From IMG/VR virus record IMGVR_UViG_3300021960_000379, positions 1 through 28,374 of that record: a stretch of 28,374 bases of DNA. One strand, given 5' to 3'. The position numbers and the translations under genes were made by a program. The notes beneath the pieces are model-generated. The model saw only the letters and a program-made list of their open reading frames with translations, ran no database searches and was not told where the DNA came from. Origin of the DNA: a virus. Below, in pieces: positions 24,448 through 27,362 of the stretch (its first letter is position 1; each line of letters opens with the position of its first letter).

Positions 24448-24475
24448 TTGACACGACTACCGCCTGCACTACTGT
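24448..24475 (+). promoter_or_regulatory. Candidate promoter for the copy A leader
   Basis: TTGACA at 24448-24453 is a perfect sigma-70 -35 consensus, 4 nt after the stop of the preceding gene. TACTGT at 24470-24475 (16-nt spacer) is a partial -10 match. A transcript starting at about 24482 would begin a few bases before the first hairpin of the leader. The copy B leader has TTGACA at nearly the same distance (43 versus 41 nt) from its first hairpin, which strengthens both calls. The -10 elements are weak. Confidence 0.55.
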
Positions 24476-24487
24476 AGGTGACTTAAT

Positions 24488-24606
24488 TCGGCCTTCTCCC
24501 CGATACATGAACAATTCTTTTTACAGTATATCCCATCTTTTGGTTGAGCGTAGAGGCACTAAGTGTCTCGGAGAAGTACGCTCCTGAGAGGTGGGATGTT
24601 TTTTTT
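24488..24606 (+). promoter_or_regulatory. Pseudoknotted structured RNA leader, copy A (unknown class)
   Basis: The elements in order are as follows. Hairpin P0 is TCGG/CCGA (24488-24491 with 24500-24503), with the 8-nt loop 24492-24499. A linker containing CATGAA follows. P1 is 14 bp with several G-U pairs (24530-24543 with 24584-24597), then a TT bulge (24544-24545). P1b is GAGCGTA/TACGCTC (24546-24552 with 24577-24583). P2 is GAGGCAC/GTGTCTC (24553-24559 with 24563-24569). The 3' bulge GGAGAAG (24570-24576) is exactly complementary to loop bases CTTCTCC (24493-24499), giving a pseudoknot. A run of eight T (24599-24606) follows P1, as in an intrinsic terminator, and GATATG starts the next gene. 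The P1 3' strand contains GAGGT, a potential ribosome site that would be sequestered. I read it as a regulatory leader or terminated small RNA. Confidence 0.72.
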
Positions 24607-24609
24607 GAT

Positions 24610-25161
24610 ATGAATAAACTTAAATTTTACCAAGATATATTAGATGTCGTGCTCACCGAGCCAGAACACAAAGGCAACTCCACTTTAGTAAACATTAAAA
24701 CACAACTACGAGGCTTAATTCAAGGGGAAGAGTTATGTGGCATGTTTGGTATTGATATTAAAGATATAGCAACACATCCAGTTCACTATAAAAAACTAAG
24801 CGAGCACCAACGCCTTGTCTTTATGGATGGCGAAAACAGAAAGATTGCTTGGCCAGATGACGGAAGGCAACCGAAAGACGAGTGGTTGTATGTAATCTCT
24901 TTCCCAACAGGGGCATATATATTTGGTAGAGATTACCCCATAAAAACCTTTGAGGCATTCTTTCAAGAATTGCGTCAGTATAGCCCTAAGTACACCGACT
25001 CAAAAAACAAAGCCTTGTACTATACCCCTGATAAAACAAGAGATGTACATGATGCGTTTAGTGAAATACTAGGACGGCACCGCAACGATGTTGATAAAGA
25101 ATTAAAAGAAATAAAAAAGCAAAAATTAAGGGAAGAGCTTGCTGCACTTGACAAAGAGTAG
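24610..25161 (+). CDS. Hypothetical protein with C-terminal coiled coil, own leader (183 aa)
   Basis: I start at ATG 24610 (MNKLKFYQD). An in-frame TTG at 24544 would place the structured leader inside the gene and has no ribosome site. The protein has an N-terminal helical part, a central strand pair WLYVISFPTGAYIFG (about 110-124) followed by the helix TFEAFFQELRQYSPKY, and a Lys/Glu coiled coil at the end (KELKEIKKQKLREELAAL). Similar SFPTGAYIFG-type proteins occur in phages, but I know no function. The gene looks more A/T-rich than its neighbours and sits between two promoter-plus-RNA elements, so it may have been acquired as an independent unit. Confidence 0.75.
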   Translation: MNKLKFYQDILDVVLTEPEHKGNSTLVNIKTQLRGLIQGEELCGMFGIDIKDIATHPVHYKKLSEHQRLVFMDGENRKIAWPDDGRQPKDEWLYVISFPTGAYIFGRDYPIKTFEAFFQELRQYSPKYTDSKNKALYYTPDKTRDVHDAFSEILGRHRNDVDKELKEIKKQKLREELAALDKE

Positions 25162-25176
25162 AGAGAGTAATTAGAT
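25148..25176 (+). promoter_or_regulatory. Candidate promoter for the copy B leader and replication genes
   Basis: TTGACA at 25148-25153 lies inside the last codons of the preceding gene. TTAGAT at 25171-25176 follows with a 17-nt spacer (3 of 6 -10 matches). A start at about 25183 would precede the first hairpin of the leader by about 8 nt, closely mirroring copy A. It would drive the initiator, helicase and methyltransferase genes independently of the upstream cluster. Confidence 0.5.
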
Positions 25177-25190
25177 ACGCATAAATCTTA

Positions 25191-25309
25191 CGGCTGTAGC
25201 AGGCCGAATGATAGACCATGAAGATTAAATATATTTACCAAACCTCGCAGTTGAGATCAATGGGTAGTTTATCGCCCACTGCTACGATTTCCTGCGAGGT
25301 TTAATTTTT
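25191..25309 (+). promoter_or_regulatory. Pseudoknotted structured RNA leader, copy B (unknown class)
   Basis: It has the same architecture as copy A with different helix sequences. P0 is CGGC/GCCG (25191-25194 with 25203-25206), with the 8-nt loop 25195-25202. The linker contains CATGAA. P1 is AAACCTCGCAG with CTGCGAGGTTT (25240-25250 with 25292-25302), a perfect 11 bp, then a TT bulge (25251-25252). P1b is GAGATC/GATTTC (25253-25258 with 25286-25291). P2 is TGGGT/GCCCA (25261-25265 with 25274-25278). The 7-nt 3' bulge CTGCTAC (25279-25285) is exactly complementary to loop bases GTAGCAG (25196-25202). A T run (25305-25309) and GATATGAA follow. The GAGGT of a possible ribosome site lies within the P1 3' strand, 12 nt before the initiator ATG. 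Confidence 0.75.
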
Positions 25310-25312
25310 GAT

Positions 25313-26086
25313 ATGAAAAACTCGTTCATACTTTATAACGACTTACTGCCGACTGTGGAAAAGCTATCAGACGAAACAGCAGGCAGGTTGCTGAAGATGA
25401 TTTTGCAGTATGCCAATGGAGACAATCCAACAACCGACGATCTTGTGCTGGATGTAATCTTTGGATTGGTGCAGCAGCAAATCAAGCGGGATACCAAGAA
25501 GTATTCTGAGTACATTAAAAAGCAACGGGATAATGGGAAAAGGGGCGGTAGGCCAAAGAAGCCAGCGGTTAATCAGGAAACCCAAAAAACCCAACCCTTT
25601 TTAGAAAAACCCAAAAAAGCTGACAATGATAATGTTAATGTAAATGACAATGTAAGTGCTAGTGTTAATGACAAACAAGATACTCCCCCCATAATCCCCC
25701 CTAAAGGTGGGAATACGCCAATTCCTAAAAAGCCACACTTTGATCTCAGTCATGCAGAACAATCCAATATGGATGGTGACTTAGCCTTTGAGATATTCGA
25801 CGATTGGGCAAGAGCCACTGGCAAGACCTATCAGGATTGGGATATTGCATGGAGGAAAGCTTGCCGTGAATGGTTGCCAGACAAATACGCAAAGGTTAAA
25901 GCCAACCAACAGATACAGAACACCGAGATCAAATCAACTCCAGTCGAGCCTATCAACTGGCATAGCTTTGCAATTGAACAATATCCACAACTCAGGGACA
26001 AGCTGGAAACCGAGTACAAGCAATGGGACGACCTGCCGCAAAGCATTCAGGAAGCCATAACCGAGGACATCAAGAATGATTCATGA
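25313..26086 (+). CDS. Replication initiator / helicase loader candidate (DUF6291-like N-terminus)
   Basis: Residues 1-80 (SFILYNDLLPTVEKLSDETAGRLLKMILQYANG..., KYSEYIKKQRDNGKRGGRPKK) match the N-terminal domain seen in many phage replisome-organiser proteins (DUF6291 type), including the basic GKRGGRPK hinge. A low-complexity Asn/Asp/Val linker at 103-119 follows. A C-terminal helical domain with DDWARATGKTYQDWDIAWRKACREW (163-187) resembles the loader domains of DnaD/DnaT-like and lambda P-like replication proteins. It is directly followed by the DnaB gene with an 11-nt overlap, the expected partner: it should recognise the origin and load the helicase. The ATG follows the copy B RNA leader by only 3 nt and has no free ribosome site. 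Confidence 0.78.
   Translation: MKNSFILYNDLLPTVEKLSDETAGRLLKMILQYANGDNPTTDDLVLDVIFGLVQQQIKRDTKKYSEYIKKQRDNGKRGGRPKKPAVNQETQKTQPFLEKPKKADNDNVNVNDNVSASVNDKQDTPPIIPPKGGNTPIPKKPHFDLSHAEQSNMDGDLAFEIFDDWARATGKTYQDWDIAWRKACREWLPDKYAKVKANQQIQNTEIKSTPVEPINWHSFAIEQYPQLRDKLETEYKQWDDLPQSIQEAITEDIKNDS
25621..25672 (+). repeat. AATGT/AATGA-type short repeat inside the initiator gene
   Basis: A run of degenerate 6-nt units (variants of AATGTA, AATGAC, AATGTT) encodes an Asn/Asp/Val linker. In replication initiators such tracts often lie in the region that separates the DNA-binding and helicase-loading domains, and in some phages the DNA itself is part of the origin. Here the repeats could be origin iterons, but they are short and imperfect, so this is only a possibility. 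Confidence 0.45.
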
Positions 26087-27362
26087 CACAGTAACAGTAC
26101 CAGACTCTACGGAGTACGAGCAGGGGCTACTTGCCTGTTGCTTTCTAGACCCTAAGTGCATTCAGGATTCGATCTGCTCAGGCATTGAGGATGCCACATT
26201 CAGCACGATGTTCCATGCAGACATCTGGAGCGTACTGGTTCAGATGGATAAAGACGGGACACATCCCAGCGAAATTGAGGTAGCTGATTGTCTAGCGAGG
26301 GATCACGAACATGACAAGGGTGGTGCCTATCGGGAACTTAACACGCTCACAGAAGCCGCACAGACCACTGTAAGCATGCCGTTCTATATTAAGGAGGCTC
26401 TTCGTATATCTAAATTACGAAAGACCCGTGAAGGATGCTTAACCGCCCTTGATAGAATTACTAAGGACGACGACCCAGAACGCATTGCCAAAGATTTACT
26501 GCAAACACTCAGCGACTCGGCAACAGAAACTAGCCAAGACACAGACATTCCGACAGTCACAGAGAGCGTAATTAACGACCTCAAGCAACGAAACCAAGAC
26601 GGCAAGAAGTTCGTCGGGCTAGGCACAGGACTATCTAACCTTGATACCATCCTTGGGGGATTTCGTGAAAGCTCATTCAACATCATTGCTGGTCGTTCGA
26701 AGGCAGGGAAAACTACACTAGCCCTGCAAGTTGCAATACATAACGCAAAGCAAGGCATCTTCACTCGCATCTGGTCACTGGAAATGTCAGACGAGCAACT
26801 GCTATTCAAGGTGCTGTGTGCAATCGCTCAAGTAAATCCCAATAGGGCTAATGATTGCCTCCTAACGCAAGCGGAGTTTGATCGCCTAGAGTCTGCAAGG
26901 CACGAGATCTGCAAGCTTCCCCTAGCAATCAAGGACATTGCCAACGTAACAACAGAGAGGATTGCAGCACAACACAAACAGGACATCGCCAAGTACGGGC
27001 AAGCCTTCTGTGTGGTAGACTACCTGCAACTCGTCAGGTCTATCGAAAGGAAACTCTCACGGGAGCAGCAAGTGGCAACAATATCACGGGACTTCAAGAT
27101 CCTTTTCAAAGACACTAAAAGCCAAGGTCTTGTATTATGCCAACTCAATCGAGGATCAGAGTCCGAGAACAGGGAGCCACGCAAATCAGACCTTAGAGAG
27201 AGTGGAAGCCTTGAGTCAGATGCAGATTCCGTCACCATCCTTTACAATGACTTGCAAGACCCAGACAAAACTTGGGCTAAAGTTGCAGCTAATAGACATG
27301 GTGCTGAAGGTAAAGCCGCATTGTCTTTCAATAAACCAATCTCACATTTCACCAACTACTAA
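26076..27362 (+). CDS. dnaB: DnaB-family replicative DNA helicase
   Basis: The 428-aa product has the two-domain DnaB layout. The N-terminal helical domain (about 12-105) begins EYEQGLLACCFLDP and contains FHADIWSVLVQMDKDG. The RecA-like ATPase starts GTGLSNLDTILGGFRESSFNIIAGRSKAGKTTLA, with Walker A at 205-213; the catalytic Glu lies in WSLEMSDEQLL (236). Walker B is FCVVDYLQLV (311-320). Motif H4 is GLVLCQLNRGSE (351-362), followed by PRKSDLRESGSLESDADSV (368-386). Walker A reads GRSKAGKT instead of the usual GRPSMGKT, a variant that keeps the Lys and Thr. It unwinds the phage replication fork and is probably loaded by the protein encoded just upstream. The start ATG overlaps that gene by 11 nt. 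Confidence 0.95.
   Translation: MIHDTVTVPDSTEYEQGLLACCFLDPKCIQDSICSGIEDATFSTMFHADIWSVLVQMDKDGTHPSEIEVADCLARDHEHDKGGAYRELNTLTEAAQTTVSMPFYIKEALRISKLRKTREGCLTALDRITKDDDPERIAKDLLQTLSDSATETSQDTDIPTVTESVINDLKQRNQDGKKFVGLGTGLSNLDTILGGFRESSFNIIAGRSKAGKTTLALQVAIHNAKQGIFTRIWSLEMSDEQLLFKVLCAIAQVNPNRANDCLLTQAEFDRLESARHEICKLPLAIKDIANVTTERIAAQHKQDIAKYGQAFCVVDYLQLVRSIERKLSREQQVATISRDFKILFKDTKSQGLVLCQLNRGSESENREPRKSDLRESGSLESDADSVTILYNDLQDPDKTWAKVAANRHGAEGKAALSFNKPISHFTNY

Follow-up and report, generated by a model that had tools for sequence, protein, structure and literature searches.

In plasmid attenuators of the pT181/pIP501 type, a leader with a terminator precedes the gene for the replication initiator and is recognized through loop-loop contacts; these attenuators depend on an antiterminator stem and on an antisense RNA that is transcribed separately, from the opposite strand. 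Pseudoknotted riboswitches and the leader of T4 gene 32 illustrate that a structured 5' leader with a long-range helix can control expression, and the gene 32 pseudoknot serves as a model for autoregulatory translational control. The packaging RNA of phage phi29, about 120 nt long, carries two mutually complementary loops, the sequences of which vary between phages.

The CI RNA of phage P4 relies on complementary segments within one transcript and on premature termination in the leader of the replication genes (PMC4825925). IsrK of the Gifsy-1 prophage is a small RNA with its own promoter and terminator. Read-through of the terminator produces the downstream phage mRNA, which makes the transcript a dual sRNA/mRNA, and IsrK regulates translation via a pairing of about 30 nt with orf45 (PMC4825925).

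The DNA analysed here is a virus record of 28,374 bases, referred to below as the window. Its left part carries genes for a head-tail adaptor and for an internal virion protein, which suggests that the virus is a podovirus. The replication region occupies the right part and contains genes for an exonuclease VIII-like protein, a DUF3127 single-stranded DNA-binding-like protein, several small proteins, P0001, P0002, a DnaB helicase and a C5 methyltransferase. The DUF3127 protein, together with the promoters of related phages, points to a host among the Bacteroidota. P0002 and the helicase gene probably constitute a replication operon, which would be under the control of the leader in front of it.

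P0001 and P0002 are each preceded by a structured leader, A and B, respectively. Both leaders fold to one plan, as the original prediction held, and every element and helix it named is present in each. A 5' hairpin, P0, carries a loop sequence, x, that pairs with a segment, x', of a terminator-like hairpin, which is followed by a U tract and an ATG (Table 1). This ATG lies within a shared sequence, GATATGAA, and each downstream gene starts with it, so that the leader spans the region from just past the putative promoter to the start codon. A TTGACA element, previously placed 41-43 nt before P0, is indeed present in both, at distances of 40 nt (A) and 43 nt (B). The element of leader B sits within the last codons of P0001. 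Both promoters are weak by consensus, and that of leader A was missed by a promoter scan. The 43 nt between the preceding stop codon and P0 of leader A differ by a single base in a related viral contig (L003).

Table 1. Positions of the leaders, their elements and the neighbouring genes (window coordinates unless a contig is named)
Feature	Position	Strand	Remarks
Leader A	24488-24609		directly before P0001
A, putative promoter	24448..24475	+	TTGACA 24448-24453, 16 nt spacer, TACTGT 24470-24475
A, P0	24488..24503	+	TCGG, loop CCTTCTCC, CCGA; x = CTTCTCC 24493-24499
A, main hairpin	24528..24599	+	P1 24528-24543/24584-24599
A, TT bulge	24544-24545	+	in main hairpin
A, P1b	24546-24552/24577-24583	+	GAGCGTA/TACGCTC
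A, P2	24553-24559/24563-24569	+	GAGGCAC/GTGTCTC
A, x'	24570-24576	+	GGAGAAG
A, U tract (T8)	24599..24606	+	abuts the stem; GATATG next
Gene P0001	24610..25161	+	183 aa, no assigned function; ATG 3 nt past the leader A U tract
Leader B	25191-25312		directly before P0002
B, putative promoter	25148..25176	+	TTGACA 25148-25153, 17 nt spacer, TTAGAT 25171-25176
B, P0	25191..25206	+	CGGC, loop TGTAGCAG, GCCG; x = GTAGCAG 25196-25202
B, main hairpin	25240..25302	+	P1 25240-25250/25292-25302, AAACCTCGCAG/CTGCGAGGTTT
B, TT bulge	25251-25252	+	in main hairpin
B, P1b	25253-25258/25286-25291	+	GAGATC/GATTTC
B, P2 region	25261-25278	+	in main hairpin
B, x'	25279-25285	+	CTGCTAC
B, U-rich tract	25303..25309	+	AATTTTT, directly past the stem
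Gene P0002	25313..26086	+	DUF6291 (PF19808), resembles phage primosomal proteins; directly behind leader B
DnaB helicase gene	26076-27362	+	next after P0002
Leader C, P0 and P1 (L003, L004)			P0 loop CTTCCACC pairs with GGTGGAAG; P1 AACCCGCAAG/CTTGCGGGTT; TT bulge
Leader C, other elements (L003, L004)			P1b GATCG/CGATC; P2 TAGC/GCTA; U tract; GATATG
x-x'-x'' leader	L111:640-818		third x ACACCAC
x-x'-x'' leader	L112:2160-2355		third x CACTACAC
x-x'-x'' leader	L113:5830-6000		third x AATCGAC

The leaders resemble the P4 CI RNA and c4 of phages P1 and P7 in being phage leaders, placed before replication genes (P4) or antirepressor genes, with complementary segments within the transcript, and the order x-x'-x'' recurs in three relatives (L111-L113). 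However, the complementary segments here are loops of a compact fold that ends in an intrinsic-type terminator, the Rfam C4 model does not match, and the phages examined are mostly without an integrase. IsrK likewise has a promoter, a terminator and read-through into a downstream phage mRNA, but a 5' hairpin that makes a kissing contact with the terminator is not described for it, and its genes and hosts are different. With the plasmid attenuators the leaders share an intrinsic terminator before a replication gene and loop-loop pairing, whereas a non-exhaustive search identified neither an antisense RNA nor an antiterminator stem. The phi29 packaging RNA is similar in length (about 120 nt) and in its complementary, variable loops; the present leaders, in contrast, stand before replication genes in phages with other sets of structural genes, are followed by a terminator and a gene, and occur in some genomes in more than one copy with different loops. 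Unlike riboswitches, the clades of leaders described below share no conserved sequence core, and this speaks against a ligand pocket built from conserved bases; moreover, no Rfam riboswitch scores above its gathering threshold: the best, PreQ1, reaches 18 bits compared to the required 39 and lies elsewhere, at 24775.

The fold is more stable than expected by chance. The minimum free energy is -41.5 kcal/mol for leader A (z = -3.74 relative to shuffled sequence) and -35.4 kcal/mol for leader B (z = -3.56). When the upstream sequence was shuffled, with the terminator hairpin kept and the partner required to fall inside a hairpin loop, an equally long loop partner arose in 20 of 400 trials for A, 9 of 400 for B and 1 of 400 for leader C of two related contigs. 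A strict descriptor, run on both strands of about 1.5 Mb, matched these leaders and one AT-rich site only. The DNA pattern T8GATATGAA was discarded as a marker of the leader: it occurs in 81 viral stretches, the 5' flanks of which, inspected by eye, contain no comparable leader.

In the search for a host, neither a structural protein (514 aa) nor DnaB led to a close relative. P0002 is common to three viral contigs (L002, L003 and L004). In L002, leader A and P0001 are absent, and leader B, 100% identical to that of the window, directly follows an A-type upstream region. This arrangement implies that leader A and P0001 come and go together, as one unit bordered at P0. The unit comprises 24487-25187, and its edges are at the P0 hairpins (GACTTAAT / ... 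AAAT / CTTACGG). Protein searches found distant relatives of P0001 (about 40%) only in the Methanosarcina virus MetMV and in L171 and L172, and the leader is not present at these three genes. P0001 thus occurs both in an archaeal virus, MetMV, and in a phage that presumably infects bacteria.

L003 and L004, in which the downstream protein is 74% identical, carry leader C, whose plan is unchanged but whose sequence does not resemble that of leader B (52% identity, compared to 49% for random sequence). The flanks of B and C are 95% (flanking gene), 98% (promoter region) and 99.5% (first 396 nt of DUF6291) identical. The leader at this position has evidently been replaced, or has diverged past recognition, with its structure kept. 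The DnaB proteins are only 45% identical (L003:3777-5036 and window:26076-27359), whereas the DUF6291 proteins next to them are nearly identical over roughly their first 130 residues, a contrast that, judged from the sequences, is due to mosaic recombination adjoining the leader.

The feature is larger than originally reported. Alignment of DUF6291 N-termini led to 80 viral loci, and the leader plan was found within 500 nt upstream of the DUF6291 start at 55 of 77 phage loci above the descriptor threshold; the descriptor and its thresholds were tuned on the first examples, and because many of the loci are related, the 55 cannot be taken as independent events. The controls gave 0.15 (shuffles), 0 (reverse strand) and 0 of 72 (downstream regions). 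Cultured carriers are the Flavobacterium phages sniff9-2, tooticki6-1 and elemoA, the Olleya phage Harreka_1 and the Cellulophaga phages phi13:2 and phi19:3; sniff9-2 has two leaders, with x = GTCGTCG and GTGAGACG. The carriers probably infect Bacteroidota for the most part. The Vibrio and Pseudoalteromonas DUF6291 genes examined have no such leader, and a profile search of genome contigs with the DUF6291 alignment returned six uninformative loci from Clostridia or unnamed metagenome-assembled genomes. In most leaders outside the window, a Bacteroidota-type promoter element, TAnnTTTG, ends 5-19 nt before x, so that the RNA would begin with P0. The leader RNA is roughly 75-130 nt long across the phages. 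The stem runs directly into a U tract in every clade; the tract is broken in a few relatives (L236, CTTTGTAAT; L209, CTTTCTATT), and the start codon is only 3-25 nt past it.

Two large clades were compared, one of 29 distinct leaders collected by a pattern scan (clade 1) and one of 32 leaders (clade 2). In clade 1, 99.0% of the cells are paired, 12 pairs have changed on both sides, and the covariation score is 0.282, compared to 0.116 for shuffled and at most 0.052 for slid controls. In its x:x' helix, pairing reaches 98.5%, and both partners have changed at 4 of the 9 pairs (AU/GC/CG, AU/UA, UA/GC and GC/CG). Clade 2 is 98.4% paired and scores 0.260 (0.113 shuffled, at most 0.085 slid); compensatory change in its x:x' helix is confined to one pair (AU/CG/GC). 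The leaders thus contain a long-range loop helix backed by covariation, as expected of a kissing loop or pseudoknot. The original prediction had proposed selection on the structure, the loop/bulge pairing included, and had named a loss of this complementarity in homologues as evidence against it. The opposite is seen: related phages keep the pairing through compensatory changes. Pairing kept while the letters change marks a real RNA device, and conserved G-U pairs in clade 1 (columns 58:106, 28 of 29 rows) indicate that RNA, not DNA, is under selection.

Diversifying selection on x and x' within clades was considered and rejected, the entropy in clade 1 being 0.47 for x and 0.41 for x', compared to 0.40 for P0 and 0.41 for the linker. 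One genome (G020) has two leader copies, in which x and x' differ at one pair only. The internal loop between P1 and the apical stem of clade 2 (L117-L169) has an invariant 5' AGTA facing 3' GAAAG and resembles the sarcin-ricin/loop E motif. Covariance models of clade 1 (R1) and clade 2 (R2) do not detect the window leaders, so shared descent of the window copies and the large clades is not proven; the two are tied by architecture, gene context and position, and the likeness could be due to convergence.

The leaders of clade 1 precede three types of replication protein, a methyltransferase and small proteins. Because these first genes are unrelated, the leader appears to be a portable cis control element rather than a part of one gene. 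In several clade 1 records (L098, L216, L229 and others) the N-terminal halves of the replication proteins differ (MKKSF, MNSRDTC and MKRKKAF), while the C-terminal half is similar and the leader type identical, a case of domain swapping under a constant leader.

The original prediction could not name the class, and no Rfam 15 family matches. At the gathering threshold there are no hits in the window and 16 related loci, permissive scans give chance-level scores only, and no published description of the leader was found in the open-licence literature. The absence from Rfam is probably explained by a sequence that changes almost wholly between lineages while the pairing plan stays. The layout is that of an intrinsic terminator or attenuator, in which a G+C-containing stem followed by a U tract lies between promoter and start codon.

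The leader is best interpreted as an attenuator that regulates the replication operon in cis through a kissing loop, with a short terminated RNA as a by-product (probability about 0.55). Transcription would start at or just before P0, making the leader the 5' end of the replication-operon transcript, and P0 would expose the 6-10 nt sequence x. Some 45-80 nt further on, RNA polymerase would produce the long hairpin and U tract, which together make an intrinsic terminator and leave 3-25 nt to the start codon. As the 3' strand of the hairpin leaves the polymerase, the internal x' would pair with x to form a kissing-loop or pseudoknot helix spanning the leader, and this pairing in cis would set whether and when the terminator stem closes ahead of the polymerase. 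Some transcripts would end as a short terminated RNA, about 110-125 nt long in the window, while others would read through into the mRNA of DUF6291/DnaB or of P0001, and the device would limit the amount of replication protein.

This interpretation is favoured by the fold, the complementarity and covariation of x and x', the position between promoter and start codon and the U tract. Moreover, the order of promoter, P0, terminator hairpin and start codon leaves no room for a second promoter, so expression must pass the terminator. From the structure and its conservation, which are observed, we infer with moderate confidence that termination occurs and that x:x' pairing affects it. The leaders showed no antiterminator hairpin that could compete with the terminator. 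Judged by geometry, the terminator stem and x:x' could form together, so which way the pairing would act is a guess. The signal may be a ligand, a protein or the terminated RNA acting in trans. The interrupted U tracts of L236 and L209 suggest that strong termination may not be needed everywhere. Against attenuation stand the weak promoters of the window and a link to the large clades that is architectural and positional only. The earlier shortlist of an attenuator, an autoregulatory site or a terminated small RNA still appears right, with the attenuator favoured.

Attenuation through a leader peptide was rejected because clades 1 and 2, judged by eye, do not preserve an open reading frame through the hairpin. 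Such a frame begins at an ATG downstream of P0 in A, B, C, phi13:2 and phi19:3, and its start or frame is lost in L109, L194, L199, L126, L153 and sniff9-2. Between phi13:2 and phi19:3 (L088 and L176) two T runs carry one-base changes that offset each other and so preserve the frame, and this lineage possibly does encode a leader peptide.

Control could instead be exerted on translation, the hairpin or pseudoknot acting as a standby site, a roadblock or an operator for a phage protein (autoregulation by the replication protein), and the U tract as a landing site for the ribosome or S1. The proximity of the start codon to the U tract in every clade agrees with this, a structure conserved with little sequence fits recognition of shape, and the AGUA/GAA internal loop of clade 2 is reminiscent of a sarcin-ricin motif. 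Nevertheless, a stem with an immediate U tract, as present in all clades, is the hallmark of intrinsic termination, and autoregulation by one protein is hard to reconcile with clade 1 leaders preceding unrelated N-termini, including that of a methyltransferase. Translational control is accordingly regarded as unlikely, although it deserves to be weighed.

It is also possible, but rather improbable, that the terminated short RNA acts in trans, through loop-loop contacts with new leader transcripts, in self-recognition, copy-number control or superinfection control, in the manner of P4 CI RNA, P1 c4 RNA or IsrK of Gifsy-1. Two complementary loops in one RNA permit such pairing. The trans version is attractive because B and C are wholly different between near-identical flanks, as expected for an exchangeable specificity, x differs within one genome (A and B of the window, sniff9-2, G020), and in L111-L113 a copy of x, x'', lies just before the DUF6291 start codon, an order like seqA-CI-seqC of P4 (PMC4825925). 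In these three, x' could pair with either copy of x. However, the third copy is absent from the window leaders and nearly all others, x and x' do not clearly change faster than other parts within clades, and the multi-copy genomes are only three, with a single differing pair in G020. Furthermore, Phage_integrase is missing from the window and 18 of 19 relatives (19 of 20 records, which may be partial), so that lysogenic immunity is unlikely.

A 5' cap, in which the terminal P0 and the kissing fold protect the mRNA from 5'-end-dependent decay and the U tract is incidental, is in line with P0 at the inferred transcript start of most relatives; it leaves the terminator-like stem and U tract by the start codon, as well as the long-range helix, unexplained, and is improbable. 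Least credible is a DNA-level feature (a single-stranded DNA hairpin, replication origin or recombination site), because the G-U pairs are conserved, the U tract and promoter are strand-specific and non-replication genes such as the methyltransferase lie downstream, even if the site is at replication genes and the leader/gene units look exchangeable with boundaries at P0.

Returning to the cis-acting attenuator, little is known about gene regulation in Bacteroidota phages, and here one RNA device recurs at the starts of replication operons. It is an RNA of the kind that sequence-led searches miss, and its presence in cultured phages makes it directly testable. A more far-reaching and speculative proposal, to which we give little weight, is that the leaders are an undescribed, widespread phage class in which replication genes are controlled by self-recognition through a kissing code, x/x', that can be exchanged freely. 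If so, termination at each leader would be set by its own terminated copy or by its own cis partner only, and leaders with different codes would be insulated from each other, whether they share a genome or belong to phages in competition. Given the free natural variation of x/x', the leaders may also be a source of orthogonal attenuator parts.
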